From positions 1 through 47,285 of IMG/VR virus record IMGVR_UViG_3300025669_000004: a stretch of 47,285 bases of DNA; one strand, given 5' to 3'. A model generated the notes under the pieces. That model was not told the origin of the DNA. It saw only the letters and a list, made by a program, of their open reading frames with translations, and ran no database searches. Source of the stretch: a virus. Of this stretch, positions 20,943 through 38,378 are shown piece by piece. Each line of letters opens with the position of its first letter. Within the stretch, counting starts at the first letter, position 1. The translations under genes and the position numbers were made by a program.

Positions 20943-21097
20943 TTAGTTTTCAGTTGCAAATTAAGGAAGATGTTAGTTATATTTTCACGCAACAGATATA
21001 TAACAACTATTCTTTACTCAGAGCTAAATTATTACCACTTTAAACATCTAGCGCTTCGGCTAACTAGATAAAGGTAATAATTGTAGCTGAAAGTTAA
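20943..21097 (+). ncRNA. Structured RNA motif, copy 1 of 3
   Basis: Closing helix: TTAGTTTTCAGTTG (20943-20956) with TAGCTGAAAGTTAA (21084-21097), 14 of 14 pairs counting G-U. Inside: an upstream hairpin (20972-20982 with 20998-21007) whose loop contains ACGCAACAG (20987-20995), and a downstream hairpin ATTATTACC/GGTAATAAT (21028-21036, 21073-21081) with a nested ATCTAG/CTAGAT stem, ending 2 nt before the closing strand. The same plan recurs at 27178 and 38244. It lies before small genes leading to the terminase. Confidence 0.6.
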
Positions 21098-21145
21098 CTA
21101 TCAAATATATGGATAATAAGTATTGGATTTATTCTAATGGAGATT

Positions 21146-21301
21146 ATGTCTAAAATAATAATATTAAATAGAGAAAAGGCTGAGATAATCCGAAAAGATT
21201 GTCATATTCCATACGAAGAAGAAAATGGTAAGTATGTTTTTGAATATACCATAAGTTTAGGAAAGATTTTAAAAGATTTAAGAGATGAATCTGCAAACTA
21301 G
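21146..21301 (+). CDS. Small hypothetical protein
   Basis: A 51-aa protein (MSKIIILNREKAEIIRKDCH start). A 14-codon frame (21109-21153, MDNKYWIYSNG start) with the common leader overlaps its start and may couple its translation to the RNA element upstream. Acidic centre (PYEEENGKYVFEYTI) and helical end. Not assigned. Confidence 0.45.
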   Translation: MSKIIILNREKAEIIRKDCHIPYEEENGKYVFEYTISLGKILKDLRDESAN

Positions 21302-21410
21302 ATTAAATCGCATAAAGGTATGGATATGGTGGGTTTTACATAAATCGGCTAAAAGTAGGGAAAAGTTAAGCGATAGGAGACGATATAAGAAGAGTATAGG
21401 AAAGAGATGA
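21285..21410 (+). CDS. Small basic protein
   Basis: A 41-aa, very basic protein (MNLQTRLNRIKVWIWWVLHK start, then RRRYKK), overlapping the previous gene by 17 nt. It may be a small nucleic-acid-binding or membrane-associated peptide. It ends in TGA, one of the few TGA stops in the genome. Tentative. Confidence 0.35.
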   Translation: MNLQTRLNRIKVWIWWVLHKSAKSREKLSDRRRYKKSIGKR

Positions 21411-21437
21411 CCTAACACTCATAGAATAAATAATAAT

Positions 21438-21563
21438 ATGAACATAGAAGATATTAAAATAGATAAGGGAGAAGAATTTACTACTAAAGATTTTAAATTT
21501 ACAATTAGAACATATCTTGAACCATTTTATTATAGTATAGGAGATGGGGAGGAAATCAAATGA
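21438..21563 (+). CDS. Small acidic protein before small terminase
   Basis: A 41-aa protein (MNIEDIKIDKGEEFTTKDFK start). Its opening MNIxDIKIDK is shared with the next gene (MNINDIKIDK), so one may be a partial duplication of the other's start. It ends ATGA, with the next ATG overlapping. A GGGGAGG sequence precedes that ATG. Function unknown. Confidence 0.5.
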   Translation: MNIEDIKIDKGEEFTTKDFKFTIRTYLEPFYYSIGDGEEIK

Positions 21564-21925
21564 ATATAAATGATATTAAAATAGATAAGACCACAGAAGT
21601 TAAAGAAAGTAAAGTAGTAGAACCAACAAAGGATAGTAAAAAGATAGAAAGAGATAAGAAGGGAAGATTAAAGAAAGGTTCTATTTTAAACCCTACTGGT
21701 AAAGGTGGAGATGGTATTAGTTTACTAGCCGATATAAAGAAGAAATTGTTAGAAGTAAAGAATGATGAACCTAATAAATATAAAGAACTAATAGATTACT
21801 ACTGGAAGAATGAGAAGACTAGAGATTTACTTATAAAGATGATAGATGGTTTACCTAAACAGAAAATAGATTTAAAAGCTAAAGTAGAAACTTATGATTG
21901 GGGAGAATACAAAGATAATTTATAG
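21560..21925 (+). CDS. terS-like: Candidate terminase small subunit
   Basis: A 121-aa protein immediately before, and overlapping by 32 nt, the large terminase. It starts with an acidic tail, then KGRLKKGSILNPTGKGG, the GRxKKGxxxNPxG motif of a family often found at this position, and then helices. The overlap and the motif support a DNA-recognition subunit, but I cannot confirm the fold from sequence. Start ATG overlaps the previous TGA and has a good GGGGAGG site 8 nt upstream. Confidence 0.6.
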   Translation: MNINDIKIDKTTEVKESKVVEPTKDSKKIERDKKGRLKKGSILNPTGKGGDGISLLADIKKKLLEVKNDEPNKYKELIDYYWKNEKTRDLLIKMIDGLPKQKIDLKAKVETYDWGEYKDNL

Positions 21926-23177
21926 CCCAAGATTATGGTCTAAACCATTACACGAAGGTAAAGAAAGATGGAAAGTAATAGTTGCACATAGAAGATCTGG
22001 TAAAACTTTTGCTAGTATCAATCATTTGATAAGAGATGCAGTAAGGGTAGAGAGAAGTAAGTATGCTTATATTGCTCCTACTTATAAACAAGCAAAGAAT
22101 ATAGCTTGGGATATATTAAAAGAATATGCTCGTAAGATAGATGGTGTAGTATTTAATGAATCAGAGCTAAGAGCAGACTTTAGAAATGGTAGTAGAATAA
22201 CTTTATATGGAGCTGACAATCCAGATAGTTTACGTGGACTAGGATTATGGGGAGTAGTATTTGATGAATATAGCCAACAGCCTAGTAAGATATTTACAGA
22301 GATTATAAGACCAGCATTAGCAGACCACGAAGGTTATGCTATATGGATAGGAACTCCTAAAGGTAAGAATGATTTCCATAGATTATATCAAGTAGCAAGA
22401 AAGACTGATAATTGGTTAGGACTATTATTAACAGTAGAAGATACTAAACTCATAAATGATGCAGAACTACTAGATAGTAAAGCAATAATGACTAATGATG
22501 AGTATAACCAGGAGTGGTATTGTTCATTCGAAGCAGCTATTAAAGGAGCTTATTATTCTCAAGAGTTATCAGAGATGAGAAGTAGTGGAAGAATAAAACA
22601 AGTACCACAAGACAAGGAGTTAAAAGTTCATACAGTATGGGATCTAGGAGTAGGAGATGCTACATCAATAGGTTTCTATCAAGTAGTAAATAATGAATAC
22701 CGAATGATAGACTACTATGAGAATACAGGTAAAGGATTAGATTTTTATATAAACTACCTACATACTAAACCTTATATCTATGGAGAACACTTTGCTCCAC
22801 ACGATATAAAGGTAAGAGAGTTTAGTTCAGGTAAGAGTAGATGGGAGATAGGACAGAACTTAGGTATAAACTTCCAGATAACTCCTAATATGAAGATAGA
22901 TGATGGTATCAATGTTGCTAGACTATTCCTTAATAAACTATGGGTAGATGAGAAGAAGTGTGAAACATTCCTAGATTATATAGGACAGTATAAGAAAGAA
23001 TGGAATGACCTAAGAGGATGTTTTGGAGATAAACCAGTACACGATTTTACTTCTCACGCTGCTGATATGCTTAGATACACAGCTATAGTACACGATAAGA
23101 TGACTAATTATGATTATCAACAAGAACCATTAGATAATGAACCATTAGACCCTTATTCACTAATACAACAAATATGA
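21894..23177 (+). CDS. terL: Terminase large subunit
   Basis: A 427-aa packaging motor. The ATPase domain has Walker A AHRRSGKT (31-38), Walker B GVVFDE (120-125) and a GTP motif near residue 153. The RNase H-like nuclease has a TVWDLGVGD segment with the first catalytic Asp at 250, and a HAADMLRYTA motif near residue 405. Full length for phage TerL. It cuts concatemeric DNA and drives it through the portal with ATP. The start is inferred from the overlap with the small subunit. It ends ATGA, overlapping the next start. Upstream is the small terminase candidate and downstream lies the portal after three small genes. Confidence 0.92.
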   Translation: MIGENTKIIYSPRLWSKPLHEGKERWKVIVAHRRSGKTFASINHLIRDAVRVERSKYAYIAPTYKQAKNIAWDILKEYARKIDGVVFNESELRADFRNGSRITLYGADNPDSLRGLGLWGVVFDEYSQQPSKIFTEIIRPALADHEGYAIWIGTPKGKNDFHRLYQVARKTDNWLGLLLTVEDTKLINDAELLDSKAIMTNDEYNQEWYCSFEAAIKGAYYSQELSEMRSSGRIKQVPQDKELKVHTVWDLGVGDATSIGFYQVVNNEYRMIDYYENTGKGLDFYINYLHTKPYIYGEHFAPHDIKVREFSSGKSRWEIGQNLGINFQITPNMKIDDGINVARLFLNKLWVDEKKCETFLDYIGQYKKEWNDLRGCFGDKPVHDFTSHAADMLRYTAIVHDKMTNYDYQQEPLDNEPLDPYSLIQQI

Positions 23178-23497
23178 ATAAACCAATGAAACAACACATA
23201 GAAAAATCACAATGGGACGAGTTAAGTTATAAACAAAAGAAAACATTTGTAATTAGTATATATAGTGATTGTTCTTTTGAATATTTTGAAGATTGTTTTG
23301 ATGAATATGGTTATGTAAATATAGGACAAATGGTTGAGTTCTTAGGAGATGATATGATGACAATAGATTTACTAGAAGACAATTTCTTTTCTGTTGAAAC
23401 AATGCCTATGATAGCTGAAGAAACATTTACATTATTTGAAAAGAGTAATCTATGTGATGCTCTATGGGAAGCCTGTGTTTATAAATTAAAACAATAA
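23174..23497 (+). CDS. Hypothetical protein
   Basis: A 107-aa, acidic protein (MNKPMKQHIEKSQWDELSYK start) whose ATG overlaps the terminase stop. It is rich in Asp/Glu/Phe (ECFDEYGYVNIGQM-like centre). It ends YKLKQ, as does the next gene. Translational coupling to the terminase suggests a packaging or head role; not assigned. Confidence 0.55.
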   Translation: MNKPMKQHIEKSQWDELSYKQKKTFVISIYSDCSFEYFEDCFDEYGYVNIGQMVEFLGDDMMTIDLLEDNFFSVETMPMIAEETFTLFEKSNLCDALWEACVYKLKQ

Positions 23498-23499
23498 AT

Positions 23500-23718
23500 A
23501 TGACTATAGAACAAATGATAAGGTTTTTAGAAAAGCATTATGATATTATTTCACTAGAAAGAGGTTCAAAGTTTAATTCTAAAAAGCCTAATATGTGGGA
23601 AGTGAGAGTTAGCAATAGAAAAAAAGATGATAGTTTAGAATTTATTGGAGAATGGATTGAAAAAGAATTAGAAGATGCTCTACAAAAAGCGATTGATAAT
23701 TATAAATTAAAACAATAA
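23500..23718 (+). CDS. Hypothetical protein
   Basis: A 72-aa protein (MTIEQMIRFLEKHYDII start) with a central KPNMWEVRVSNRKKDDSLEF segment and a helical end in NYKLKQ. The last five residues match the preceding gene's end. One base of spacing to the next ATG. No family is recognised. Confidence 0.5.
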   Translation: MTIEQMIRFLEKHYDIISLERGSKFNSKKPNMWEVRVSNRKKDDSLEFIGEWIEKELEDALQKAIDNYKLKQ

Positions 23719-23719
23719 T

Positions 23720-23920
23720 ATGATAGAATTAACAAAAGAAGACGACAAAAAGATAGATGAAGCCTTAGAATCAGTTAAAGTTAAAGAAGCTCAAGAGCTT
23801 TTAATAAAAGAACAACAAAAGAAAAGCCAAGTAGTAATGGCAGAGATACAAGCTGTACTAGATAAACACGGATATACTATGAGAGTAGTAAATAACATAC
23901 AGTTAGTACCAAAACAATAA
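23720..23920 (+). CDS. Small helical protein
   Basis: A 66-aa, charged, mostly helical protein (MIELTKEDDKKIDEALESVK start, then KEQQKKSQVVMAEI). Probable coiled coil. It directly precedes the structured RNA before the portal. Function unknown. Confidence 0.5.
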   Translation: MIELTKEDDKKIDEALESVKVKEAQELLIKEQQKKSQVVMAEIQAVLDKHGYTMRVVNNIQLVPKQ

Positions 23921-23932
23921 TTTATAAAAAAT

Positions 23933-24211
23933 ACACAAGAAGAACCTTGCTTTAGGGATATGCAAGTAAAACCATTCCTCAAGATATATTAAAGGGTCTT
24001 ATGCGAAAGTTAGGGTAAATGAGTGTCAGGACTTCTCACCTAACCTTTTAATAAGCCTCGTTGAAATATTAGAGCATTGAATTGGCTAATACACCTAGAG
24101 GTAGGTGTAGAAGAACTTAGTTGCAATAGATGTTTACTTCTTGTGTCATCTATATGTAGATATTCTACATTCTACATCTTCCTTTAAGGGTATTAAAGGT
24201 TAAAAGTCCTG
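23933..24211 (+). ncRNA. Structured RNA of about 280 nt with predicted pseudoknot, before portal
   Basis: The 313-nt gap 23921-24233 has no good frame but strong pairing. Outer helix ACACAAGAAG/CTTCTTGTGT (23933-23942, 24137-24146) encloses CTTGC/GCAAG (23946-23950, 23962-23966), GTTAGG/CCTAAC (24009-24014, 24039-24044) and ACACCTA/TAGGTGT (24091-24097, 24102-24108). Downstream are ATGTAG/CTACAT (24154-24170) and CCTTTAA/TTAAAGG (24181-24199). The loop CAGGACTT (24027-24034) is perfectly complementary to AAGTCCTG (24204-24211), a long-range pseudoknot just before the portal start. It could be a packaging RNA, a portal-mRNA leader or a ribozyme; no family is recognised. Confidence 0.6.
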
Positions 24212-24233
24212 CTGTTTAAATAATTTATAATAT

Positions 24234-26210
24234 ATGGCAAAAAAAGAAAAGCAAACACAATCTCAAATATCCGAAGATAATGATAATCGTGATATAAAGC
24301 TACCAAACTATACAACCGATGAACAGAAGTATAGAGGATTTATCATTGATAGACTCACATCAGCTAAAGAGTCAAGAGAACAAACTCATACAGAGTATGA
24401 TGATTTAACTTATACAGAAAACTATAGAACTAATAAGAAAGCTGGTATAAGTTATAATCCACCAAAGAATAATAAGAATGACCCAAGAATAGTTACAGGC
24501 ACTACAATGGAGAAGGAGAATATTATACTTAATACTATTCTAAACCTTAATTTAGAGCCAGACATAGAAGCATTTAGTAAAGATGACCTACCAGTTCAAA
24601 AGCTATCTGAAGCAGTAGAAACTATGGTAAAGAAGTCTAGAATCCTAGAGGACTATGATGGATTAAAGAGAGAACTATTCTATAAGGAGTTATTTGACCA
24701 AGGAACAGCATTTGCTGAGGAGTTATTTGTTGAACCTAAACACATTCAAAAGGAACTAAAGGATAAGAATTGGTTTGAAAAAGATGTAGATAAAATAGAA
24801 TGGACAGAAGTATTAAAAACAGGACTAGGACAATGTGAGATAAATCTTATTAAAGGAACTAAAGTATTTCTAGGTAATATCAATGAAAGTCTAGTAAGTA
24901 AACAACCCTATTTATATACAGTAGAATACAAGCCATATTATGACGCTGAGAAGCTATATGGCAAGATGAAGAGATGGGAGAATGTACCTACTCAAGTTAA
25001 TCAATTAGATAGTAAAACAGAAGATGATACAGAGTTCGCTAATTGGAGACTATATGATACTAACGAAGAAATGGTAGAGATTATTAAATACCAAGACAAG
25101 TGGTCTAATGAGTATATGTTAGTTATTAATGGAGTAATGATGCTCCCTTGTGGTTTTCCTTTATCAGAAATGACAGGAGATGGAAAATATAGTTTAACCA
25201 AAGGAGATGTAGAGAGAATACCATTCTTTGCTTATGCTAAAGGTATTCCTGCTAAGACTAAGGTAGCTCAGGCAGTATTAGATGAGTTCCTAAGACTAAT
25301 GATACTCAAGACTCAACAGAGCTATAAGCCTCCTTATGCTAATGCTAGTAATCGTATATTAAACTCAGACATATTTAATGCTGGAACAATAACTCCTAAT
25401 GTAGCTCCTGATCAATTAAAACCTCTTGTAACTCATCAAGGAGTAAGCACAGGTGAAGTTAATGCTTATCAAATGCTACAAGCTGTGTTAGATGATATGA
25501 CTGTATCTAAACAATTTGAAGGTACTGAAGATAAGAAACAAACTGCTACTGAGTCAATGAATAATATGAGACAGAGTTTAACTAAGATTGGTTTATATGT
25601 ATTAGGTGTCATCAACTGGGAGAGAGAGATGTGTAAGAGAAGAATAGTTAATATCCTAAGACATTGGACAGAACCTATTGATAAGAAGATTACTGGAGTT
25701 AAGGGTAAGGTTGAGAGTATGTATAGAACTATATCAGCTCCTGCTAGTTTTCAAGGTAAACAAGGTATTAGAATGGTTAAATTTACAGAAGATAATACTC
25801 CTAATACTCCTGAAGCAATAGAGAGAGAAGAAGATGCTTTTGAGAAACTAACTGGTAAACCTGTTAAAATAACATATTTGAGAGCAGATATGATTAAAAA
25901 TCTAAATAATGAATGGTATATTGAAATTACTCCTACTGAGAAAGAAACATCAGAGGTAAGAAAGGCTATGTTTAAACAAGATATAGCTGATACAGTAGCC
26001 CTATTTGGTATAGAATCAACTAACCTAGAAGGATTAAAGCCTAGATGGTCTCAAATCCTTAAAGAAGAAAAAGATGTATTATTTACTGAAGGACAACAAA
26101 GTATTAGTCCAATGCAACAAGGACAGGCAGGAGCTGGTCAAAGACCTCAAGTTCCTAGTGTAAAAACTCCCCAAAAGCCTAGTATAAACACTCTTCAAAA
26201 TCAAGCATAG
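24234..26210 (+). CDS. Portal protein
   Basis: A 658-aa protein with the order expected of a podovirus-type portal: N-terminal wing (YRGFIIDRLTSAKESREQ), a helical stem, and a beta-rich middle with LYTVEYKPYYDAEKLYG. A long helical crown-like C-terminus holds the Gln-rich tail (QGQAGAGQRPQVP) that may be flexible. It follows the terminase region and precedes the scaffold-like gene. It would form the dodecameric DNA channel, docking terminase outside and the neck inside. The start is supported by the AATATATG leader after the structured RNA. Confidence 0.82.
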   Translation: MAKKEKQTQSQISEDNDNRDIKLPNYTTDEQKYRGFIIDRLTSAKESREQTHTEYDDLTYTENYRTNKKAGISYNPPKNNKNDPRIVTGTTMEKENIILNTILNLNLEPDIEAFSKDDLPVQKLSEAVETMVKKSRILEDYDGLKRELFYKELFDQGTAFAEELFVEPKHIQKELKDKNWFEKDVDKIEWTEVLKTGLGQCEINLIKGTKVFLGNINESLVSKQPYLYTVEYKPYYDAEKLYGKMKRWENVPTQVNQLDSKTEDDTEFANWRLYDTNEEMVEIIKYQDKWSNEYMLVINGVMMLPCGFPLSEMTGDGKYSLTKGDVERIPFFAYAKGIPAKTKVAQAVLDEFLRLMILKTQQSYKPPYANASNRILNSDIFNAGTITPNVAPDQLKPLVTHQGVSTGEVNAYQMLQAVLDDMTVSKQFEGTEDKKQTATESMNNMRQSLTKIGLYVLGVINWEREMCKRRIVNILRHWTEPIDKKITGVKGKVESMYRTISAPASFQGKQGIRMVKFTEDNTPNTPEAIEREEDAFEKLTGKPVKITYLRADMIKNLNNEWYIEITPTEKETSEVRKAMFKQDIADTVALFGIESTNLEGLKPRWSQILKEEKDVLFTEGQQSISPMQQGQAGAGQRPQVPSVKTPQKPSINTLQNQA

Positions 26211-26241
26211 AAAAAGCGATACTTATAATTAAAATAATAAT

Positions 26242-26613
26242 ATGTACGCACATTATAGAAAGAAGAAAAGAAGTTTGTTATATAATATCTTTATAAAGAT
26301 TGGTAAAAAGTATTTTTATGATTCATTAAGATATGAATTTCCTACAGAAACTAAAACATTTAGTCCTAAAAAGGAAATATGTCATTGTGGAGGAGTCATA
26401 GAGTGTATCTACGGAGATAGTCCTCATAGCAAATGTGATAAATGTGGAAAAGAATTATGGGGAGGTATTGGTTATAATTTATATTTACTAGATATAGATA
26501 ATGATAACAATATGCTTTATGAATATTATAGTAATGATAAGCACGAGGGATTTAAAACAGAAATAAAGTTAGGAATACCAACTACTAGGAAGATTATTAA
26601 AAAGATTAAATAA
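26242..26613 (+). CDS. Zinc-ribbon hypothetical protein
   Basis: The protein has 123 aa. ICHCGGVIECIYGDSPHSKC followed by DKCGKE gives four Cys in a ribbon-like pattern. The N-terminus is basic (MYAHYRKKKRSLLY), and the C-terminus has a beta segment (GFKTEIKLGIPTTRKIIKKI). It lies between portal and head genes, so a head-morphogenesis accessory is possible. Not assigned. Confidence 0.55.
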   Translation: MYAHYRKKKRSLLYNIFIKIGKKYFYDSLRYEFPTETKTFSPKKEICHCGGVIECIYGDSPHSKCDKCGKELWGGIGYNLYLLDIDNDNNMLYEYYSNDKHEGFKTEIKLGIPTTRKIIKKIK

Positions 26614-26614
26614 T

Positions 26615-26899
26615 ATGGATATAAACACAGTAATAGACAAATTAGACCTATCAGAAGCAGATAAGAAGTCAGTTAGTGTTATCTTTAGCCGTAAGGTATT
26701 CAAGAAAGTAATGGATAAGATAATACAGATTAAAAGAGATGTTATAGGTGATGAAGTTAAGACCCTAGAGGGATTGGAGAGAATGAGATTTACAAAGATA
26801 GGCAATGAAGAAGTTTATAAGATATTTGAAGGAATAAACTCAATCTTTGAGAGTGAAAACAAACCAAAGGAAGATTTTAATCCTCAAGATATGATTTAA
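26615..26899 (+). CDS. Hypothetical helical protein
   Basis: A 94-aa protein (MDINTVIDKLDLSEADKKSV start), helical and charged, with an acidic tail (PKEDFNPQDM). It starts 1 nt after the previous stop. Helical, charged proteins in this place often serve in head assembly, but I see no diagnostic motif. Confidence 0.5.
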   Translation: MDINTVIDKLDLSEADKKSVSVIFSRKVFKKVMDKIIQIKRDVIGDEVKTLEGLERMRFTKIGNEEVYKIFEGINSIFESENKPKEDFNPQDMI

Positions 26900-26909
26900 T
26901 AACAAATAT

Positions 26910-27176
26910 ATGGATTTAGAAAAAGATTTGGTAAAAGCAATGAATAATCCTAATAAACTACAGACATTATGAATAGAGTTATCTAAGAAGAAAAAGTGTA
27001 TTTATTGTAGTAAGAAGTTTAAAGATGGCATAGTAAATAAACATCCTAACGAGAGTAAGTTTGCATTATCAGCACACTATTGGTTTACAGCAGAGTATTT
27101 AGTACATTGTCAGACTACTCACGGTTATCATCCTGATACAATGACTGAGTTTTTAGAAACAATTAATAATAAGTAA
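26910..27176 (+). pseudogene. Zinc-finger frame interrupted by in-frame TGA
   Basis: ATG 26910 (AAATATATG leader) opens 20 codons (MDLEKDLVKAMNNPNKLQTL), then TGA at 26970-26972. The same frame continues for 67 more codons to TAA 27176 and carries CIYC, SAHYWFTAEYLVHC and HGYHPD, a plausible Cys/His zinc domain. No start codon exists for the second part. TGA works as a normal stop elsewhere here (20790, 21410, 21563, 23177, 37925), so it is a nonsense mutation, sequencing error, or local read-through. Confidence 0.55.
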
Positions 27177-27177
27177 T

Positions 27178-27303
27178 TTAATAGTTAGTTTCCAGTTGAT
27201 TATGAGACAAAGATTGCGACCGATAGGACGCAAATACCTAGATGGGAGTAATGTGGTGACGACCAATTCAAATATTACTCCTCAGCTGAAAGCTAACTAT
27301 TAA
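27178..27303 (+). ncRNA. Structured RNA motif, copy 2 of 3
   Basis: The closing helix is the longest of the three: 27178-27198 pairs with 27283-27303, 21 positions with one C/A mismatch, including TTAGTTTCCAGTTG against CAGCTGAAAGCTAA. A hairpin TTGCG/CGCAA (27214-27218, 27229-27233) carries the ACGCAA motif, and GGAGTAAT/ATTACTCC (27245-27252, 27274-27281) ends 1 nt before the closing strand. Pair changes against copies 1 and 3 (G-C for G-U or A-U) support selection for pairing. It precedes the scaffold-like gene. Confidence 0.62.
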
Positions 27304-27332
27304 GATAATTTAATAAATAAGTTAATTATTAA

Positions 27333-27399
27333 GTGTTATTCGCCTTCGCAAGGGTTGTTAGTGAAGTGTACACCACTTACATATTGCGTTAGATAACAC
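27333..27399 (+). promoter_or_regulatory. Structured leader of the scaffold-like gene
   Basis: GTGTTAT (27333-27339) pairs with ATAACAC (27393-27399) directly before ATG 27401. Inside, CCTTcgcAAGG and AAGTGtacacCACTT can form hairpins, and CGCAA can pair with TTGCG near 27385. The start codon sits at the foot of the stem, so this may control translation of the next gene. Confidence 0.5.
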
Positions 27400-27400
27400 A

Positions 27401-28054
27401 ATGAAAGGCACATTAAAAATGTCAGAAGAAAAAGACCCAGTAGAACCTGTAGTTGAACCTATAGAGAAAACATACTTCAATGAAGATGGTGAGGAAGTAA
27501 AATTCCCAGGTACTCCTGAGTCAATAAAGAAACTACTTGATGAGAGTAATACTGAAATTTTAGCTAAAGAGAAAGAGCTTAAAGGTCTTAGAGATAAAGA
27601 CTTTAACTTTAAAAGGGTTAAAAATATGTCAGTTGAAGAGAAAGCTAAGTTTGATGAGAAAGAATTGGTTCTTAAACAACAGATAGAAGATTTGCAAGAT
27701 GGTCAAGACAAGACAAAGAACCAACTAGTAGAGAATTGGAAAGACAAAGCAATTCGTAGTATGGTTGGTAGTGATGAGGAATTGAAAAAGAAAATCATTG
27801 AATCTTATGAAACATTAAACATTGAAGCTAATACTGAATTTGAAATTGGCGATAAGGTGGTCAAAGCATTTCTATCAACTGGTTTAGCTCCAGTAGGTGT
27901 ATCTAATCCATTAACCACTGCTTCTCACGGAGTATCTGCATCACCTGATACAGAGAAAGGTATAGAATCTAAAGCTAGTAAAGAGTTTGGCAACAAATTT
28001 GGACTTACAGCAGATGATAAGAAGAAGTATAAGAAAGGAGTTAAGATAATTTAA
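27401..28054 (+). CDS. Scaffold-like head-assembly protein
   Basis: A 217-aa protein with an acidic N-terminus (MSEEKDPVEPVVEPIEKTYF), a long central coiled coil (about residues 70-115, EKELVLKQQIEDLQD) and a basic helical C-terminal tail (KKYKKGVKII). This charged coil-plus-basic-tail design and the place between portal and capsid genes match tailed-phage scaffolds, which bind the capsid protein through the C-terminus. ATG 27401 is the first start after the stem; the next in-frame ATG (27419) is equally plausible and gives 211 aa. Confidence 0.6.
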   Translation: MKGTLKMSEEKDPVEPVVEPIEKTYFNEDGEEVKFPGTPESIKKLLDESNTEILAKEKELKGLRDKDFNFKRVKNMSVEEKAKFDEKELVLKQQIEDLQDGQDKTKNQLVENWKDKAIRSMVGSDEELKKKIIESYETLNIEANTEFEIGDKVVKAFLSTGLAPVGVSNPLTTASHGVSASPDTEKGIESKASKEFGNKFGLTADDKKKYKKGVKII

Positions 28055-28064
28055 CTATAAATAT

Positions 28065-28673: not shown

Positions 28674-28683
28674 TAATAATAAT

Positions 28684-29073: not shown

Positions 29074-29083
29074 TATTTTATAT

Positions 29084-29151: not shown

Positions 29152-29238
29152 GAAAATTTCCCAGGTAAGGAGTTAAAATCCAAAAGGTATGTAAAAACCT
29201 TAATTTTACGTATTTAATTAACCCTTAACAGGAAAAAT

Positions 29239-30689: not shown

Positions 30690-30714
30690 AGTAGAAAAAT
30701 ATTGATAAAATTAT

Positions 30715-30777: not shown

Positions 30778-30789
30778 ACTTAATTCATA

Positions 30790-30830
30790 TTTTATAAGCT
30801 ATATTTAGAGGTGGTGGTGGGCTTATAAGA
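30790..30830 (+). promoter_or_regulatory. Hairpin leader of the beta-helix gene
   Basis: TTATAAGC (30792-30799) pairs with GCTTATAA (30821-30828), extendable by a T-G and a T-A pair, around a 21-nt G-rich loop (GGTGGTGGTGG). It lies 16 nt before ATG 30846 and may stabilise or control that message. Confidence 0.45.
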
Positions 30831-30845
30831 TTTAACAAAAAAATT

Positions 30846-31862
30846 ATGTTATACGGACAAAATTCAGGATATGGAATGGGACTTATTAATATGGTCTCAT
30901 CTATTATCCCTACCTTTGGAAGAATTTTTGTGGTTTTTGACCCAGATGATACTACAAGCGAAAATTATCAAAGAATGCAAGAATTAATGAAACCAGACCC
31001 ACAAGGAAAAACTAGATTCTTTACTTCATTAGAGTCAGCTTACGCAGCTGTAGAATCTAATAACAATGATGTTATTTTACTAGATGGTCATTCAGCTCAC
31101 GAAATTGATGCAATGATAACTGTTTCAAAGAGCAGAGTTCATTTCGTTGGTATGGATGGTGGTGGAAGATTATGTCAACAAGGTGCAAGAATTAAAATGG
31201 GTGTTACTGGTGTAGCAACTGATTTAGCACCAGTATTAGTTACTGGAACTAGAAATACATTTAGGAATCTAAAAGTTGAGAATGCTTCTAGTACAGATGA
31301 ATCTTTATATGGATTTATTGAGAATGGAGAAGGAACATACATTGAAAACTGTCATTTCCTAAAGACTGCTGGACTTGATGACGCTGGTTGGGCTAACTTC
31401 TGGATGGCAGGAGATAGTTTAACAATGAAAAACTGTACTCTTGGACAATCTAATGTTGGAAGTGCAGTAGCTCATTATGGCATCTTAATTGATGCTAAAA
31501 CTGGTGGAGGTTCAAGTGCAGTTAAAGAAAATATGTTAGAGAATATTTATATTAATATGTCTGTTCTTACTGCTGCTGCTGCAACTGCTTGTTTTATTAA
31601 AGTAGCCGATGGTGCTGCTATGAACTTTAATAATGTTATTAAAGACTTGAACGCTTATAACTTTGTACAGGCTAGTACTGGAACAATTATGACAGATGCT
31701 GTTCTTGGAGCAGCTTGTACTGGTGGATATCTACAATTAATCAGACCAACCTTTATGGGTTGTACTGGTGTAGGTTCTGCTACAGGACAAGGAATATACA
31801 TTTCTCAATCTACAGCTCCTGATGCTAATGGAGGATTGGGAACTGAACTTACTGATTCCTAA
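30846..31862 (+). CDS. Right-handed beta-helix structural protein
   Basis: The protein has 338 aa. After a 70-residue N-terminal domain the chain shows repeated short strand-turn units with Asn/Gly turns (DVILLDGHSAHEIDAMI, RNTFRNLKVENASS, GTYIENCHF, DSLTMKNCTL, NNVIKDLNAYN), the look of a parallel beta-helix as in pectate-lyase-like folds. No polysaccharide-lyase catalytic signature is evident. Position directly after the capsid gene suggests a head fibre or other surface protein; an ORFan tail-spike role is an alternative. Confidence 0.55.
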   Translation: MLYGQNSGYGMGLINMVSSIIPTFGRIFVVFDPDDTTSENYQRMQELMKPDPQGKTRFFTSLESAYAAVESNNNDVILLDGHSAHEIDAMITVSKSRVHFVGMDGGGRLCQQGARIKMGVTGVATDLAPVLVTGTRNTFRNLKVENASSTDESLYGFIENGEGTYIENCHFLKTAGLDDAGWANFWMAGDSLTMKNCTLGQSNVGSAVAHYGILIDAKTGGGSSAVKENMLENIYINMSVLTAAAATACFIKVADGAAMNFNNVIKDLNAYNFVQASTGTIMTDAVLGAACTGGYLQLIRPTFMGCTGVGSATGQGIYISQSTAPDANGGLGTELTDS

Positions 31863-31872
31863 TAATAAATAT

Positions 31873-32001
31873 ATGCCTACAAAAAAAGTAGAAAAGAAAA
31901 AGGTTGTTAAAGCTACTAAAGTAGTAAAGACAGAAATGATTGATTGCGACCATAGAAAAATCACTTTTAGTGATGGTTCTGAACAAATCTTATTTGTTTA
32001 A
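31873..32001 (+). CDS. Small basic protein
   Basis: A 42-aa protein (MPTKKVEKKKVVKATKVVKT start) with a Lys-rich head and an acidic/beta end (IDCDHRKITFSDG). Leader is AATAAATATATG. The last codons form a 7-pair hairpin (AACAAATcttATTTGTT). It could bind DNA in the capsid; function not known. Confidence 0.45.
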   Translation: MPTKKVEKKKVVKATKVVKTEMIDCDHRKITFSDGSEQILFV

Positions 32002-32003
32002 GA

Positions 32004-32066
32004 TAACCTTAGTTAGAGGGGACATACCTCACTAGGTAAAACCTCGTCCCCTCAATAGTGAGGTTA
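32004..32066 (+). promoter_or_regulatory. Switch-like RNA pseudoknot before head/neck gene
   Basis: GAGGGGAC (32016-32023) pairs with GTCCCCTC (32046-32053). ACCTCACTA (32026-32034), inside its loop, pairs perfectly with TAGTGAGGT (32056-32064) outside, an interleaved order that is a pseudoknot. Alternatively TAACCT (32004-32009) pairs with AGGTTA (32061-32066) to close the first stem, and AGGT-aaa-ACCT can fill the loop. The two states exclude each other. It lies between the small gene ending at 32001 and ATG 32087. Confidence 0.55.
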
Positions 32067-32086
32067 ATTAAATAATATATAAATTT

Positions 32087-32734
32087 ATGAGAGAACAAAA
32101 AGCTTACACAATATTAGATGATATTGGTAAAAAAACAGGTACTTTTACTGCAGCTACTACTGATGTAATTACATCTAATGCACACGGATTAAAAAACGGA
32201 GATATGGTGGTTTTAACAACTACTAATACTCTTCCAGCAGGATTATCCTTATTAACTGTTTATTATGTAAGAGACGCTGCTACTAATACATTCAAACTAA
32301 CTCTAATCCCTGATGTAGATGCCTTAGGAACTATTGCAGATGTTACAGATACAGGAATTGGAACACATACATTTACAATGCACGACATTGGAAAGAATGT
32401 TTATTCAGGTGATTATCAAAACATCTCATTATCTTTTGATACTGACGGTGCTGGAGATGCTGCAATGACAGTTAAAGTAGTAGGTTCAAATGAAGAAACT
32501 TGCCCAGACTTTAGTGCTGCTCAATCAGACACTAATATCTTTGAGTTTTTACAATGTATTGATAGTGAAAGTGGTGATGAAGTAGAAGGAGATGCTGGAT
32601 TTGTAGTAGCTAGTGCTGATGATCACGTGCTATATGAAGTAAATAAGAATAATCTAAGATGGATAAATGTCTTAATGACAGCTTGGACAGAAGGAGAAGT
32701 AACAGTAAAAGCATACCTAACTAATAATCAATAA
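32087..32734 (+). CDS. Structural protein with module shared with the tail protein
   Basis: The protein has 215 aa. Residues about 12-105 hold the segment TGTFTAATTDVITSNAHGL, then LPAGLSLLTVYYV and GTGTHTF-like words that recur in the gene at 39479 (HGLxxGxxVxxTTTxTLPAGLS). This beta-sandwich module is common in virion proteins of environmental phages. The C-terminal half is acidic and beta-rich (EVEGDAGFVVASADDHVLY). It may be a head-tail joining or minor head protein. Role inferred from position. Confidence 0.55.
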   Translation: MREQKAYTILDDIGKKTGTFTAATTDVITSNAHGLKNGDMVVLTTTNTLPAGLSLLTVYYVRDAATNTFKLTLIPDVDALGTIADVTDTGIGTHTFTMHDIGKNVYSGDYQNISLSFDTDGAGDAAMTVKVVGSNEETCPDFSAAQSDTNIFEFLQCIDSESGDEVEGDAGFVVASADDHVLYEVNKNNLRWINVLMTAWTEGEVTVKAYLTNNQ

Positions 32735-32739
32735 ATAGG

Positions 32740-33573
32740 ATGAGACGAAGTTCTAAAACCAAAAGAATAATTCCTTTTAAAGTTAAAGAAATCTCTGCAA
32801 TGGAGAAGAGGGAAAAAGTAGTTCTTGAGAAAACTCAGAAAGAACAGATTTTATTATCTAAAAATATAAAAGAGTTAGAACTTAAAGAAATATCTCTAGG
32901 CAATAGTATTGTAAGAAAACAAAGTACTTTAGATGATATGAATGTTGACAAAGCTGATAAAGAGTTAGAGCTAAAAGAACTTAATAAAAATATAGGTAAA
33001 AAACTAAAGGATTATTTAGCAGTGGAGGAAGAGATTGAAAAACTTGGTTATAATTATCTAGAAGATAAAGCTGAATTAGAACGAGAATTAGAAGATGGTA
33101 GAAAATATCATAGAGAAGAAATGGAAGGAATGGATATTAAATTAAAAGAAATTAAAGATGATGTAAATGACCTATATGCTACTAAAGACTCCTTAGAAGT
33201 CCAAATAATGGCTAGTAATGTTGAATTAGAACAGAATGAGTGTAAATTTGATGAATTAAATGGACATATTGATCTAGCTAATGAAATGATTGAAGATAAA
33301 GAAAAGTATATTGTAGAACTAAATAAAGACTCCTCAAATATCAATGAAGATATAAAGTCTAAGAGTATTCTTTTAAATGAACTTACTAAAGAGTTAGACG
33401 GTTTAGCTAAAGAAATAGAAATTAAAAACAATATAAATGATAAGTTGAAGAAAGAGAATAAATCTTTAAATACTTCTAAATTAACATTCTATAAAAGACA
33501 AAAGGATGTAGAAGAAAAAGCTGAGATAGTTAAGAGATACTATAAAGGTGCTAATGTAGAAATTGAATTATAA
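32740..33573 (+). CDS. Long coiled-coil protein
   Basis: A 277-aa protein that is coiled coil nearly end to end (LLSKNIKELELKEISLGNS, EVQIMASNVELEQNE) with heptad Leu/Ile/Val and many Glu/Lys, plus a basic head (MRRSSKTKRIIPFKVK). It may act as a rod or spacer in the virion, or as a fibre-attachment rod. Such a long rod in a short-tailed phage without a tape measure is notable. Followed 3 nt later by a small acidic gene. Confidence 0.55.
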   Translation: MRRSSKTKRIIPFKVKEISAMEKREKVVLEKTQKEQILLSKNIKELELKEISLGNSIVRKQSTLDDMNVDKADKELELKELNKNIGKKLKDYLAVEEEIEKLGYNYLEDKAELERELEDGRKYHREEMEGMDIKLKEIKDDVNDLYATKDSLEVQIMASNVELEQNECKFDELNGHIDLANEMIEDKEKYIVELNKDSSNINEDIKSKSILLNELTKELDGLAKEIEIKNNINDKLKKENKSLNTSKLTFYKRQKDVEEKAEIVKRYYKGANVEIEL

Positions 33574-33576
33574 TAT

Positions 33577-33873
33577 ATGGGAAAAATAGCAACAAAAATA
33601 AAGGTAAAGTCAGATATAGAGTTAACAGATACTAATGCTGTTGCTTTGGCTTCTAAACAAGATGATACTATAACTGCTGTTGAAGAAATAACATCAAACT
33701 TAGAGGATTCTCAAGTAACTGAAGGTGGTCAAGTAAAGAATGCAACAACTAACTTTACTCAGGAAGAGTTTATGGAACAAATGTTAGTAGAATTAAGAAA
33801 GATAACACTTCAACTAGCTATCATTACTGATACTGTCTTGAAGGATGAAGATATAAATAATAATTTAAAATAA
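33577..33873 (+). CDS. Hypothetical protein
   Basis: A 98-aa protein (MGKIATKIKVKSDIELTDTN start) with a central acidic/Thr-rich part (DDTITAVEEITSNLEDSQV) and a C-terminal helix (EEFMEQMLVELRKITLQLAI) that could pack against a fibre or trimer. It sits between the coiled-coil protein and the fibre. Perhaps a fibre accessory; not assigned. Confidence 0.45.
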   Translation: MGKIATKIKVKSDIELTDTNAVALASKQDDTITAVEEITSNLEDSQVTEGGQVKNATTNFTQEEFMEQMLVELRKITLQLAIITDTVLKDEDINNNLK

Positions 33874-33877
33874 TAAT

Positions 33878-35701
33878 ATGTCAAGAAGAGCGATACAATT
33901 TGACCCCAATAAAGCACAAACACTTACCAATAAAACTATTGATGGTGATGATAATACTCTCCAAGATATTGGAGTTGCTGACTTAAAAGAAGGAACAGAT
34001 GGACAGCTTATTACTTGGGGAGCTGATGGAGAACCTACTACTGTAGCTGCTGGAGATTCATCACAAGTATTAACAAGTAATGGAGCTGGTGCTGCTCCTA
34101 CATTTCAAGCAGTTGGTGCTGGAGTCAAAGCTACTGGTGCTGAAATAGATACAGCTACAGATGATGCTAAGTTTGCTACAGCTAAAGGAATAAAAGATTC
34201 TCATAATGTACCAAGTGTAGTACCTAGTACAGCAGGGAAAGTTTTAACTTCTGATGGAACAGATTGGATAAGTGCAGCAGGTACTGCAGGAACAGTAACT
34301 TCTGTAGCAGCTTTAACTCTTGGAACAACAGGAACAGATGTATCATCTACTGTTGCTGATGGAACATCTACTCCAGTGATAACACTACAGATACCAACTG
34401 CTTCAACAGCAAATCGTGGAGCATTAAGTTCAACAGATTGGGACACATTTAATGGAAAATTATCTACCCTAGCTTTTGCTGGACTATCTGATTATCCAGC
34501 TGATGCAGCAGGTGCATTATCAAATGATGGATCTGGTAATTTAAGTTGGTCTGCACTTGGTGCTGGAGATATGATACTTGCTTCAGCTCAATCAAATACT
34601 GGAATAAAAACATTTGATAAAGGAACATTAAAAGTAAAAGGAACATCAACTGGTGTTACCGATTTAACTACTGCAAATACAAGTGCTACATCTTATACTC
34701 AAACATTCCCAGCTAGAAATGGAACAGTAGCTAACTTAGATAATGTAACTTATATTGGAACTACTTCTGTAGCTTTAAATAGAACTACTGATACTCTTAA
34801 CTTAGCAGGAATAGGAACTCTAGGTGTAGGTGCAATTACTACAACTGGTAACTTATCTCAAACAGGAGCTACAACTTTTGGTACAGGAACTGGAACAGTA
34901 AGCATAAATGGTAGTGTTCAAATAGCATCAGCTAAAACCCTTAAATTCAATACAGGAGCAACTGTAGGAACAATAGGAACTACTTTCGCTGACAATGATA
35001 CTTCTTTGATGACTTCTCAGGCAATTAAAGAAAAGATTGAAAATTATAGTTATGCTACAACAACTGCACCAACCTTTGCTACTTCAATTACTGGTTCATA
35101 TCTAACAGCTTCTGAGATGTTAATTACAGATGCAGATAAAAAGATAGTATCAGCAGCAGTAGCAACATATCCTAGTTTGACTGAACTTGCTTATGTAAAA
35201 GGACTATCTTCATCTATTCAAACTCAGCTAGGAAATAAAGCTGCTTCAGGTGCTAATAGTGATATAACATCTATTACAGGACTTACAACAGACCTTACAA
35301 TAGCTCAAGGTGGAACTGGAGCAAGTACATTGGCAGGAGCAAGTATTCCAACTTATACAAGTACAAATACTTTTACTAATAAAAGAATTACCCAAAGGGT
35401 TGTAACTACTGCAAATGATGCTACTGCTGAAATTGATATAGATATTACAGATGTTTATGAACTAAGTGCGATTGCTGATGATACAACTTTCACTCTTACA
35501 GGAACACCAACTGATGGTCAGAAATTAATAGTCAGATTTAAAGATGCTGGTACAACTAAAGCTCTTACTTGGACAGGATTCACAGCAGTAGGAATAACAT
35601 TACCAACGACAACAGTTGTTAGTAAATGGCACCTTGTAGGATGTATTTATAATCTAGGTGCAACGACTTGGGATGCAGTAGCTTATTCAGTAGAAGCTTA
35701 A
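33878..35701 (+). CDS. Tail fibre / appendage protein
   Basis: A 607-aa protein. The N-terminus (MSRRAIQFDPNKAQTLTNKT) could attach to the virion. The body is a run of Thr/Gly/Ala/Ser beta-strand repeats (GTAGTVTSVAALTLGTTGTD; ADGTSTPVITLQIPTAST) typical of fibre shafts, and the last 100 residues (TFTLTGTPTDGQKLIVRFKD, LTWTGFTAVGITLP) resemble a compact beta-rich receptor-binding head. Candidate receptor-binding or side fibre. The glycine-rich tip of the 1348-aa protein may serve a similar role. Confidence 0.6.
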   Translation: MSRRAIQFDPNKAQTLTNKTIDGDDNTLQDIGVADLKEGTDGQLITWGADGEPTTVAAGDSSQVLTSNGAGAAPTFQAVGAGVKATGAEIDTATDDAKFATAKGIKDSHNVPSVVPSTAGKVLTSDGTDWISAAGTAGTVTSVAALTLGTTGTDVSSTVADGTSTPVITLQIPTASTANRGALSSTDWDTFNGKLSTLAFAGLSDYPADAAGALSNDGSGNLSWSALGAGDMILASAQSNTGIKTFDKGTLKVKGTSTGVTDLTTANTSATSYTQTFPARNGTVANLDNVTYIGTTSVALNRTTDTLNLAGIGTLGVGAITTTGNLSQTGATTFGTGTGTVSINGSVQIASAKTLKFNTGATVGTIGTTFADNDTSLMTSQAIKEKIENYSYATTTAPTFATSITGSYLTASEMLITDADKKIVSAAVATYPSLTELAYVKGLSSSIQTQLGNKAASGANSDITSITGLTTDLTIAQGGTGASTLAGASIPTYTSTNTFTNKRITQRVVTTANDATAEIDIDITDVYELSAIADDTTFTLTGTPTDGQKLIVRFKDAGTTKALTWTGFTAVGITLPTTTVVSKWHLVGCIYNLGATTWDAVAYSVEA

Positions 35702-35720
35702 TAATTAAACACTTAATATA

Positions 35721-36260
35721 ATGGCAACAGAAGTACAAATAGCAGGAACAGGTACTACTGATTCATCAGTCGGAACACTGGCATGGAGAAATCCTAGCAA
35801 TATTACTGCAGATGATGGAAGTGTAACCGATGATTGGTTTGCTAAGAGTGGAACAGGTCTTATATACAGCGAATATTTAAAGTCTACTAATTTTGGCTTT
35901 TCTATACCAGATGGTGCAACAATAGATGGAATAACAGTAGAATTTAAAGATTTTGCTACTAATAATGCAGGATATACAAAAGACTGGTCTGTTAAACTTG
36001 TAAAGGGTGGAACAGTACAGGGTAATGATAAAGCTGATCAAGCTCTTTTATCAGGAGATAAAACATATGGTGGTTCATCTGACCTATGGGGTATTACTTT
36101 ATCAAGTTCCGATGTAAATGCAAGTGATTTTGGTGTAGTATTTCAATCACAAGAAAATACAGTAGATTTTAATATGGTTATGGAATGGGATTATTGTCAA
36201 ATTACAGCACATTATACAGAAGTAGCAACAAACACAGGAGCATTTTTTCAATTATTTTAA
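35721..36260 (+). CDS. Virion-associated beta-rich protein
   Basis: A 179-aa protein (MATEVQIAGTGTTDSSVGTL start) with alternating strands (ATIDGITVEFKDFATNNAGY, WSVKLVKGGTVQGN) and an aromatic end (HYTEVATNTGAFFQLF). Probable jelly-roll-like fibre tip, fibre chaperone or capsid accessory, judged by its place after the fibre and by the aromatic C-terminus. No enzyme motif. Confidence 0.5.
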   Translation: MATEVQIAGTGTTDSSVGTLAWRNPSNITADDGSVTDDWFAKSGTGLIYSEYLKSTNFGFSIPDGATIDGITVEFKDFATNNAGYTKDWSVKLVKGGTVQGNDKADQALLSGDKTYGGSSDLWGITLSSSDVNASDFGVVFQSQENTVDFNMVMEWDYCQITAHYTEVATNTGAFFQLF

Positions 36261-36278
36261 AAATTAACAATAAATAAA

Positions 36279-36545
36279 ATGGAATTATTACTTTCATTGT
36301 CAATAACAATATTGGCAGAAGGATTTAAAAAGCTAATTAAGAAAGTAGGAGAAACTAAAGCTAAGTTTTTAGTATTAGGATTTGTATTATTACTATCAGT
36401 GATTTATTCAGTTCTAAATTTTAATGGATTTGTTACAGCAGTAGTATTAAAAAAGATAGTTACTATATTTGGTATGTCTATTGCTAGTTATGAGATTGTA
36501 TTTAAAAAGATTATATATCCAGTATTAAATAAGATTAAAAAATAA
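36279..36545 (+). CDS. Holin-like membrane protein
   Basis: The protein has 88 aa. Hydrophobic segments at residues 1-16 (MELLLSLSITILAEGF), 30-50 (FLVLGFVLLLSVIYSVLNF) and 54-75 (VTAVVLKKIVTIFGMSIASY) are bordered by Lys clusters, with a basic tail. Size, multiple spans and the small membrane partner at 36547 suit a holin. The corresponding endolysin is probably the anchored enzyme at 16967 or the cysteine protease at 38394. Holin calls from topology alone are tentative. Confidence 0.5.
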   Translation: MELLLSLSITILAEGFKKLIKKVGETKAKFLVLGFVLLLSVIYSVLNFNGFVTAVVLKKIVTIFGMSIASYEIVFKKIIYPVLNKIKK

Positions 36546-36546
36546 A

Positions 36547-36732
36547 ATGGAAGAAATAACAAATCAAACATTACACGAGATATTAGTGAGAGTAGAGAAA
36601 CAGGTTACCAAAACAAATGGCAGGGTAACAGATTTAGAAGATTGGAAAAACAAAATTAAGGGAGCTTTAATTATAATGAATATAATTTTAATTCCATTAA
36701 CATTGTTTATTATTACAAAATATATATTTTAG
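36547..36732 (+). CDS. XhlA-like small membrane-anchored lysis protein
   Basis: The protein has 61 aa. A charged coiled-coil N-terminus (EITNQTLHEILVRVEKQVTK, TDLEDWKNKIKG) is followed by one C-terminal membrane span (IIMNIILIPLTLFIITKYIF), the topology of the XhlA-type holin partner. It lies directly after the holin-like gene. Lysis timing or holin activation is inferred. Confidence 0.55.
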   Translation: MEEITNQTLHEILVRVEKQVTKTNGRVTDLEDWKNKIKGALIIMNIILIPLTLFIITKYIF

Positions 36733-36761
36733 TATATTAAAAAGCAAAAAGGAGTAGCACT

Positions 36762-37547
36762 ATGAAAAATAACATTCGTTATCTAGTGTCTAAGAGAAAC
36801 AATGAGAAAGTTTTATTTGTTTCTGACATCCACGCACCTTTTCAGGACAATAGAGCAGTGAGAGCTATCATATCATTTGGTAAATGGTTAAAGCCAGATA
36901 GAATCATTTTTATCGGTGATGTAATAGATTTCTATGCTGTGTCTAAGTTTAACAAAGACCCTATCAGAGCATTGAGACTTCAAAGTGAAATAGATGAAGC
37001 TCATAGTATTCTTAGGATATTCCGTAAGGAATTTCCTACTGTTGAAATGATTTACATAGAAGGTAATCACGAAGCAAGATTAAGAGGATACCTATGGTCT
37101 CAAGCATCAGAACTTTCTGGACTAAGAAATATGAGATTAGAATCTTTAATGGGTCTTGAAGTGTTGAACATTAAGTATGTCAGTAATGGTAGAATGAAAT
37201 TTAGAAACTTTGTCATCAAGCACGGTGATATAGTTCGTTTACATTCTGCTTATACGGCTCGTGCTGAACTTACGACTACTGGTATATCTGGTTTAAGTGG
37301 ACATACTCATAGACTTTCAACACATTACCTTTCAAATGAAGGTGGAGACTATGTGTGGTATGAAATTGGTTGCCTTTGTAAAATGAATCAAGAGTATATG
37401 AAAGGTAAATTCCCTAATTGGCAACAAGGATTTGCATTTGGATTCTTTAAAAAGGGTTCTGCTAAATATAATATTCACTTAGTGAACATTGTAAATGGTA
37501 AAGCACTTTTTATGGAAAATGAATTTTCTGGCAGTAATAAACAATAG
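36762..37547 (+). CDS. Calcineurin-like metallophosphoesterase
   Basis: The protein has 261 aa and all five metallophosphoesterase motifs: DIHAP (22-26), GD (52-53), GNHEAR (101-106), KHGD (153-156) and GHTH (180-183), which bind two metal ions and hydrolyse phosphate esters or nucleic acids. It has a real Shine-Dalgarno AAGGAG about 8 nt before ATG, unlike most genes here. It heads a four-gene cassette (36762-38104) of the same style. The substrate is open; such phage enzymes may act on DNA ends, cyclic nucleotides or nicks. A transferred cassette is likely. Confidence 0.85.
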   Translation: MKNNIRYLVSKRNNEKVLFVSDIHAPFQDNRAVRAIISFGKWLKPDRIIFIGDVIDFYAVSKFNKDPIRALRLQSEIDEAHSILRIFRKEFPTVEMIYIEGNHEARLRGYLWSQASELSGLRNMRLESLMGLEVLNIKYVSNGRMKFRNFVIKHGDIVRLHSAYTARAELTTTGISGLSGHTHRLSTHYLSNEGGDYVWYEIGCLCKMNQEYMKGKFPNWQQGFAFGFFKKGSAKYNIHLVNIVNGKALFMENEFSGSNKQ

Positions 37548-37556
37548 GAGGATAAA

Positions 37557-37736
37557 ATGTATGTATGGTATGAGTTCAACATCTATGAAGTGATAAGGCC
37601 ACGTCTAAGTGAACGTATTATTGCAGATTTGAGAGACTCTTGTCCTAACACTATGCTAACCTTACAACTTATTAAAAACCCTCGTTTTTTTAAGACGGTT
37701 AAAATCAAGTATGTAAAGTTTCAATTTGAATGGTAG
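37557..37736 (+). CDS. Small hypothetical protein in SD-led cassette
   Basis: A 59-aa protein (MYVWYEFNIYEVIRPRLSER start), 9 nt after the phosphoesterase stop with a TAGGAGG Shine-Dalgarno site. Its basic C-terminus (TVKIKYVKFQFEW) has alternating strands. No family is recognised. Like its neighbours it uses G/C-rich codons more often. Confidence 0.5.
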   Translation: MYVWYEFNIYEVIRPRLSERIIADLRDSCPNTMLTLQLIKNPRFFKTVKIKYVKFQFEW

Positions 37737-37745
37737 GAGGTTCTA

Positions 37746-37925
37746 ATGAAATTCTCAGAATATGTAGATTTAGCAGAGCAAGAAAGACACGCTGTAATAG
37801 ACGCACTTCTTAATGAAATCTATGATTTAAAAAGACAGCTCGCAGAATATAAACGAGCTGAAAAAAAGGAATTAGTTCCTTCAAAAAGAAAACCAGTAGG
37901 ATTTAATCAAGGTGGTAAAAAATGA
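37746..37925 (+). CDS. Small hypothetical protein in SD-led cassette
   Basis: A 59-aa protein (MKFSEYVDLAEQERHAVIDA start), with AGGAGG before the ATG. It is helical (DLKRQLAEYKRAEKKEL), with a basic Gly-rich tail, and could bind the phosphoesterase or nucleic acid. It ends with ATGA, overlapping the next ATG. Confidence 0.5.
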   Translation: MKFSEYVDLAEQERHAVIDALLNEIYDLKRQLAEYKRAEKKELVPSKRKPVGFNQGGKK

Positions 37926-38104
37926 AAGGTCAAGAAGGCAGAATAGTAGATATTGCCATTCTACTTAATGAGGGTTGGAAAAAGGAAATTTACTTTGGAA
38001 ATAATGGATTAGTCCTTTCCAAAGGTGATGATAGAATACTCTATTCTATAAAACAGAAAAGGGTAATCGTTCATTACAAATCCAAACCAATACTCGGATG
38101 TTAA
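37922..38104 (+). CDS. Small hypothetical protein in SD-led cassette
   Basis: A 60-aa protein (MKGQEGRIVDIAILLNEGWK start) beginning in the overlapping ATGA of its neighbour, beta-rich and basic (VIVHYKSKPILGC). Probably translated by coupling. It is followed 6 nt later by a terminator-like hairpin that closes the cassette. Confidence 0.5.
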   Translation: MKGQEGRIVDIAILLNEGWKKEIYFGNNGLVLSKGDDRILYSIKQKRVIVHYKSKPILGC

Positions 38105-38109
38105 TCTAT

Positions 38110-38138
38110 AGGGAGTTGACAATAAAAGCCGACTCCCT
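38110..38138 (+). terminator. Hairpin closing the phosphoesterase cassette
   Basis: AGGGAGTTG (38110-38118) pairs with CGACTCCCT (38130-38138), nine pairs with one T-G, around an 11-nt loop. It has no T-tract. It ends the cassette 6 nt after the stop codon of the last gene. It also contains TTGACA (38116-38121), but there is no good -10 at the right distance. Confidence 0.55.
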
Positions 38139-38175
38139 ACAAATCTTAATTGTAAACTAATAGTATATATAAAGA

Positions 38176-38247
38176 TTAACTACTAGTTTATAAGTTAACA
38201 TAGGTTAAGTAAATAATTTAAAAATAAAATAGATTAACATAAGTTAA
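38176..38247. promoter_or_regulatory. Operator-like palindromic repeats
   Basis: TTAACATAGGTTAA (38195-38208) and TTAACATAAGTTAA (38234-38247) are near-identical palindromes, and a weaker third copy (TTAACTACTAGTTTA) starts at 38176. Start positions are about 19 and 39 bp apart, close to two helical turns and multiples. They lie in a 289-nt gap before the papain-like gene, with the last overlapping the RNA element. They may bind a regulator. Confidence 0.45.
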
Positions 38248-38378
38248 TTTTCAGTTGCACTTAACCACACCAATTCAACGAGAGTTCGGTTGGTTAGAAA
38301 TACATACGGCAGAATCCTTTTTTGAAGTCCCAACGCAACAGAGGCTTTATTACAGTCTTCTGCCCAGCTGAAAGTTAA
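38244..38378 (+). ncRNA. Structured RNA motif, copy 3 of 3
   Basis: The closing helix has 19 consecutive pairs: TTAATTTTCAGTTG (38244-38257) with CAGCTGAAAGTTAA (38365-38378), extended outward by five. Inside are TAACCACACC/GGTTGGTTA with an AAC-gaga-GTT hairpin, and GGCAGAA/TTCTGCC (38308-38314, 38358-38364), which ends directly at the closing strand. ACGCAACAG is at 38333-38341 and can pair with the GTTGC at the inner end of the closing helix. It ends 15 nt before ATG 38394. Confidence 0.62.

Follow-up and report, generated by a model that had tools for sequence, protein, structure and literature searches.

What are the three similar, strongly folded sequences that recur in gaps between the genes of an uncultured phage, and do they act as RNA? 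The window, that is, the whole stretch of DNA analysed, comprises the 47,285 bases of one virus record; its G+C is 31%, and given a 127-base direct terminal repeat it is probably complete. Essentially all of its genes lie on the + strand; those recognisable encode a sigma-70 region 4 protein, a TyrRS-like protein, a DnaD-like loader, a DnaB-like helicase, HNH endonucleases, the terminase large subunit and an endolysin, along with a weak match to RecU/Holliday-junction resolvase. The names portal, scaffold and capsid follow gene order and synteny with relatives rather than database matches, and the "papain-like protease" label of the original prediction found no support in PHROG or Pfam. Neither a nucleotide match nor a portal protein match was found among named phages, to which TerL (~45% to Pelagibacter phages) provides the sole relation. 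In the genome collection the portal has a single relative, on a contig of 4,076 bp (L144) binned in a Mycoplasmatota MAG, which either hints at the host group or reflects faulty binning; this MAG and the DnaD- and RecU-like genes hint at a host among Bacillota/Mycoplasmatota.

Some further features of the genome were recorded on the way. The TyrRS-like protein (9565-10374, + strand, 269 aa) matches bacterial tyrosyl-tRNA synthetase over its catalytic domain (Pfam 5.7e-64; PDB 6bqy, E 1.8e-62); the HLGRT and KMSTS motifs are present and the C-terminal tRNA-binding domains apparently absent. A partnership of this protein with the three elements was considered and dropped, the protein being found in 0 of 33 relative records by a search that lacked a positive control and thus shows little. 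Of two HNH_3 genes, one (20371-20790) lies just 5' of the first element and is missing at that spot in the same-species records L009 and L010, and the other lies at 15845-16327. A small ORF before the second element (26900-27176) has an in-frame TGA at 26970 that reads TGG in L009 and L076, and TGA is the stop in only 2 of 53 called genes. TGA as a general tryptophan codon was nevertheless not supported, in that the called genes are open under table 11 with 169 TGG codons and the stop of terL is part of an ATGA overlap.

All three copies proposed in the original prediction were found in place, each 128-163 nt long and closed by a helix that we term P1. C1 (20939-21101, + strand) is closed by strands 20939-20959 and 21081-21101, with 20 of 21 positions paired and one A-C mismatch; C2 (27177-27304, + strand) by 27177-27199 and 27282-27304, with 22 of 23 paired and one C-A mismatch; and C3 (38239-38383, + strand) by 38239-38257 and 38365-38383, with all 19 paired. 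The 14-pair core of this helix is as predicted, as are its arms UUNNCAGUUG and CAGCUGAAAG (UAGCUGAAAG in C1), the first of which, the 5' arm, has no further occurrence on the + strand of the window. A hairpin, P3, adjoins the 3' closing strand in every copy, again in agreement with the prediction (about 21023-21083 in C1, 27244-27281 in C2 and 38308-38364 in C3). The elements sit in gaps whose genes on either side share one strand: C1 between the stop of a 42-aa ORF at 20926 and the start of a short ORF at 21109, C2 with its first base directly after the stop codon 27174-27176, and C3 ending 10 nt 5' of an ATG at 38394. Intrinsic terminators (a short GC-rich stem plus a T run) were rejected as an identity for these elements, the three terminator-like sites detected in 20200-39500, against 5.2 expected by chance, all falling outside C1-C3. 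A tRNA identity was likewise tried and not supported.

When all helices enclosing 60-180 nt were compared, the P1 helices of C1, C2 and C3 turned out to be the three top-scoring ones in 47 kb. Fold z-scores against shuffles were -3.3, -6.6 and -6.4 for C1, C2 and C3, respectively, with 0 of 200 shuffles as stable. With 420-460 nt of surrounding sequence, the majority of P1 pairs kept P > 0.8, the exceptions being some end positions, notably the outer five and inner two of C1. We then aligned the three copies with the C2 variant of L009 and found P1 paired in 95% of cells; a register slid by 1-3 columns gave 18-48% and zero two-sided changes. In the unshifted register, three P1 pairs had changed on both sides with pairing intact, namely A-U/U-A twice near the base and G-C/A-U at core pair 4; at the latter, the predicted series of G-U in C1, G-C in C2 and A-U in C3 was recovered, with G-U as the intermediate. 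The A-U/U-A pairs adjoin each other and may represent a shift in register, and two U-G pairs of P1 are invariant across copies. Coming from three paralogues and one variant, this covariation is modest evidence for P1.

The reliance on paralogues has its origin in how few homologues exist in the data, since every record found to have an arm pair with continued pairing was a near-identical one of this same phage. We scanned IMG/VR with three arm patterns and examined 191 matches from two looser scans, among which pairing continued outward in same-species records alone. When 1.26 Mb of relatives (96 sources) and 25 whole records were searched with a P1 covariance model, no diverged member emerged, the best other hits having E of about 0.4-1. 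With no diverged homologue found, covariation in homologous phages was not obtainable, and the family in its strict sense thus appears, within the data searched, to be confined to this phage species. The predicted lack of a known family also held: Rfam 15 gave no gathering-level match in the window, and permissive searches with C1, C2, C3 and the L009 variant of C2 produced only matches far below gathering.

The original prediction of one three-part architecture stood for the closing helix, which is clearly homologous among copies, but not for the interiors, which differ and could not be aligned, so that the RNAalifold consensus consists of P1 and nothing more. The inner element said to bear ACGCAA(CAG) was recovered in part. 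ACGCAA is present in all three copies, but the longer ACGCAACAG in C1 and C3 only, and its structural place varies: it lies in the loop of the P2 hairpin in C1 (20987-20995, + strand) and within the apical part of P3 in C3 (38333-38341, + strand), and ACGCAA falls on the 3' strand of the P2 hairpin in C2 (27228-27233, + strand). A 6-mer common to three such interiors arises in 8.6% of shuffles; C1 and C3 additionally have ACGCAACAGA in common, and C2 and C3 ACCAATTCAA. Since a 6-mer in all three copies plus a 10-mer in two was seen in only 0.65% of shuffles, some homology between the interiors is likely, though the common pieces occupy different structural places. The suggested GUUGC/GCAAC pseudoknot or switch was rejected: it is not conserved in C2 (GUUGA/GCAAA), is destroyed in the L009 variant of C2 (GUCGG), and would compete with P1.

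Records of the same species showed how these elements vary. C1 is identical in L008, L009 and L010, C3 is identical in L067, L071 and L072, and both are invariant across all same-species records aligned over them. In a sister genotype (L009, L076/L078 and L349) a longer segment, which itself folds strongly (z -5.6), takes the place of the 5' interior of C2, and the L009 variant has lost two inner P1 pairs. No empty site was seen among the same-species records aligned over each site, a small sample.

The three copies are not the only folded gaps of this genome. An element of similar shape and unrelated sequence lies 5' of the portal-like gene (24087-24195, + strand), where a closing helix of 26 positions surrounds a 57-nt interior (z -4.9). 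In the sister genotype (L009 4585-5510), an HNH endonuclease gene lies at the 5' arm of this pre-portal hairpin element and a 50-nt piece is tandemly duplicated, which suggests HNH gain or loss there. Intergenic stretches 32002-32086 and 29074-29238 also fold better than mononucleotide shuffles (z about -5.5 and -4.2, respectively). Relatives were identified by their portal, and long closing helices were sought in them without use of sequence; in 31 of 212 gaps the best helix beat all 40 shuffles, against about 5 expected. Two such elements were found in L079 (portal 47% identical; 457-626 and 3529-3693), one of 31 pairs 5' of the terminase genes in L018/L080 (portal 44%), and one in the gap after portal in L082 (portal 45%; 7933-8054), the second of L079 and that of L082 nearly filling their gaps. 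The notion that all relatives carry such elements was discarded upon reading whole the records of six others, which hold none or one each; as most of the other relatives read whole have none or one, the element is not essential to the phage group. These elements are alike in shape and position, and because their letters fail to match C1-C3 we do not call them homologous. Separately, hairpin elements of two distant relatives (L135 1774-1885 and L133 581-692) carry a T-arm-like GGCGGUUCGAGUCCGCC and are possibly tRNA-derived.

Which nucleic acid these helices serve can be approached through their imperfect pairs, for an inverted repeat acting in DNA predicts about equal numbers of G-U and A-C oppositions, whereas a transcribed RNA predicts an excess of G-U. 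Across 13 strong helices taken from gaps in this phage and its relatives, a mixed set with some members perhaps unrelated, a scoring that treats both alike yielded 41 G-U versus 11 A-C (p 3.6e-5), and C1-C3 alone 9 versus 2. This excess points to selection on RNA of the transcribed strand.

Together, these data support a structured RNA motif in three copies that is absent from Rfam, with folds that we regard as real and uncatalogued. C1-C3 are most likely cis-acting intercistronic mRNA elements, and of the roles originally put forward, late-operon control and RNA processing are still the two best readings. The best single mechanism is that a double-strand-specific, RNase III-type enzyme processes the late transcript, which we propose tentatively and at somewhat less than even chances. 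C1-C3 would then constitute a phage-specific cis-acting RNA family placed between gene blocks of a same-strand late transcription unit, each member presenting a G-U-containing duplex of 19-22 pairs that closes a branched interior. P1 would be the substrate of a host-encoded endonuclease, cutting of which would separate the late mRNA into packaging, scaffold/head and downstream modules and leave folded ends that set transcript stability. The scan of phage genes turned up nothing RNase III-like, so a host enzyme has to be assumed here. Structure, strand, copy number and position are the supported parts of this proposal; that the RNA is made and cut, and by which enzyme, we infer.

RNase III needs a helix of about 20 pairs and tolerates a freely varying interior, and phage mRNAs with several RNase III sites are known in T7 and SP82; early mRNA of SP82, a phage of Bacillus subtilis, is reportedly cleaved by the enzyme, a phage precedent. 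P1, with 20, 22 and 19 pairs in the three copies, has the about 20 or more duplex pairs of such a site. C1-C3 resemble the sites of T7 and SP82 in being several structured sites within intercistronic gaps of what is presumably one same-strand phage transcript, in offering about two helical turns of duplex, and in letters that vary more than pairing. They differ in that P1 closes a branched interior of 80-130 nt, in that the three copies have P1 letters in common, and in that cleavage is here a prediction. Against processing count the loss of two inner P1 pairs in the L009 variant of C2, the scarcity of such elements in most other relatives read whole, and the fact that an RNase III site needs neither conserved P1 letters nor a branched, strongly folded interior.

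Because processing leaves the conserved P1 letters unexplained, binding of a protein or of RNA polymerase, the elements being put-like antiterminators or target sites of a phage regulator that keep late transcription going, persists as a possible if rather unlikely alternative. The common P1 sequence and its two invariant U-G pairs suggest recognition rather than pairing alone, though invariance among recent paralogues may reflect common descent only; the position of the elements at module boundaries of a same-strand unit also fits. A precedent comes from phage HK022, whose two put RNAs are alike in sequence and work in cis with no dedicated protein (PMC9378689), and C1-C3 resemble them in being more than one related structured RNA per phage genome, presumably transcribed in cis. 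However, put RNAs are about 70 nt long, consist of two stem-loops and lie downstream of early promoters (PMC9378689), a size and shape that C1-C3 do not have, being longer, closed by a helix of ~20 pairs, and located inside gene blocks at late gene boundaries.

C1-C3 could instead be passive stable folds that insulate cistrons, shield mRNA ends from exonucleases, or space ribosomes and start codons with no specific partner, an explanation that we consider unlikely. Folding is also seen in further gaps of the window (24087-24195, 29074-29238 and 32002-32086), sequence-unrelated elements occupy the same kind of place in relatives, and a location between cistrons and high stability are what C1-C3 share with end-protecting hairpins. 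What such folds leave unexplained is the recurrence of the same P1 letters in three copies next to unrelated ones in other gaps, and they differ from C1-C3, which have long-range closure, a branched interior and a paralogous P1.

That C1-C3 represent a new cis-acting RNA class of phages is distinctly unlikely; in such a class, exchangeable branched interiors closed by a conserved duplex would make up a repeated module controlling successive late gene blocks, for example by an effect of the nascent RNA on polymerase or via a dedicated protein. They are better described as species-restricted intercistronic RNA folds than as a proven new class; the deciding covariation is beyond what three copies in a single genome can offer.

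Inverted repeats acting in DNA, as the ends of a small MITE-like mobile element or as a cruciform site, make a highly doubtful reading. Common terminal inverted repeats, variable middles, several copies and sporadic occurrence are indeed MITE-like traits, and the phage encodes a possible Holliday-junction resolvase and HNH endonucleases. Nonetheless, the strand-asymmetric excess of G-U over A-C speaks against it, no empty site appeared in the small same-species sample, and no direct repeat adjoins the inverted repeats of C1-C3 as a target-site duplication would; when offsets were allowed, C2 showed a 10-nt repeat at +7/+1 (background 1.25%) and C1 and C3 remained at background. A self-cleaving ribozyme or ligand-sensing riboswitch is very improbable: the compact branched fold, abutting helices and lack of an Rfam match would suit it, but no interior core is conserved across copies, ACGCAA sits in differing structural contexts, the pseudoknot is not conserved, and the C2 interior has been rebuilt within the species.

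Catalogues cover structured RNAs in the particle-gene operons of phages poorly, as most phages remain uncultured and the folds diverge past the reach of sequence search. Long-range closing helices, together with the asymmetry of G-U over A-C, can flag such elements and the strand on which they act, and C1-C3 provide a concrete site for the question of RNA processing in an uncultured phage group.
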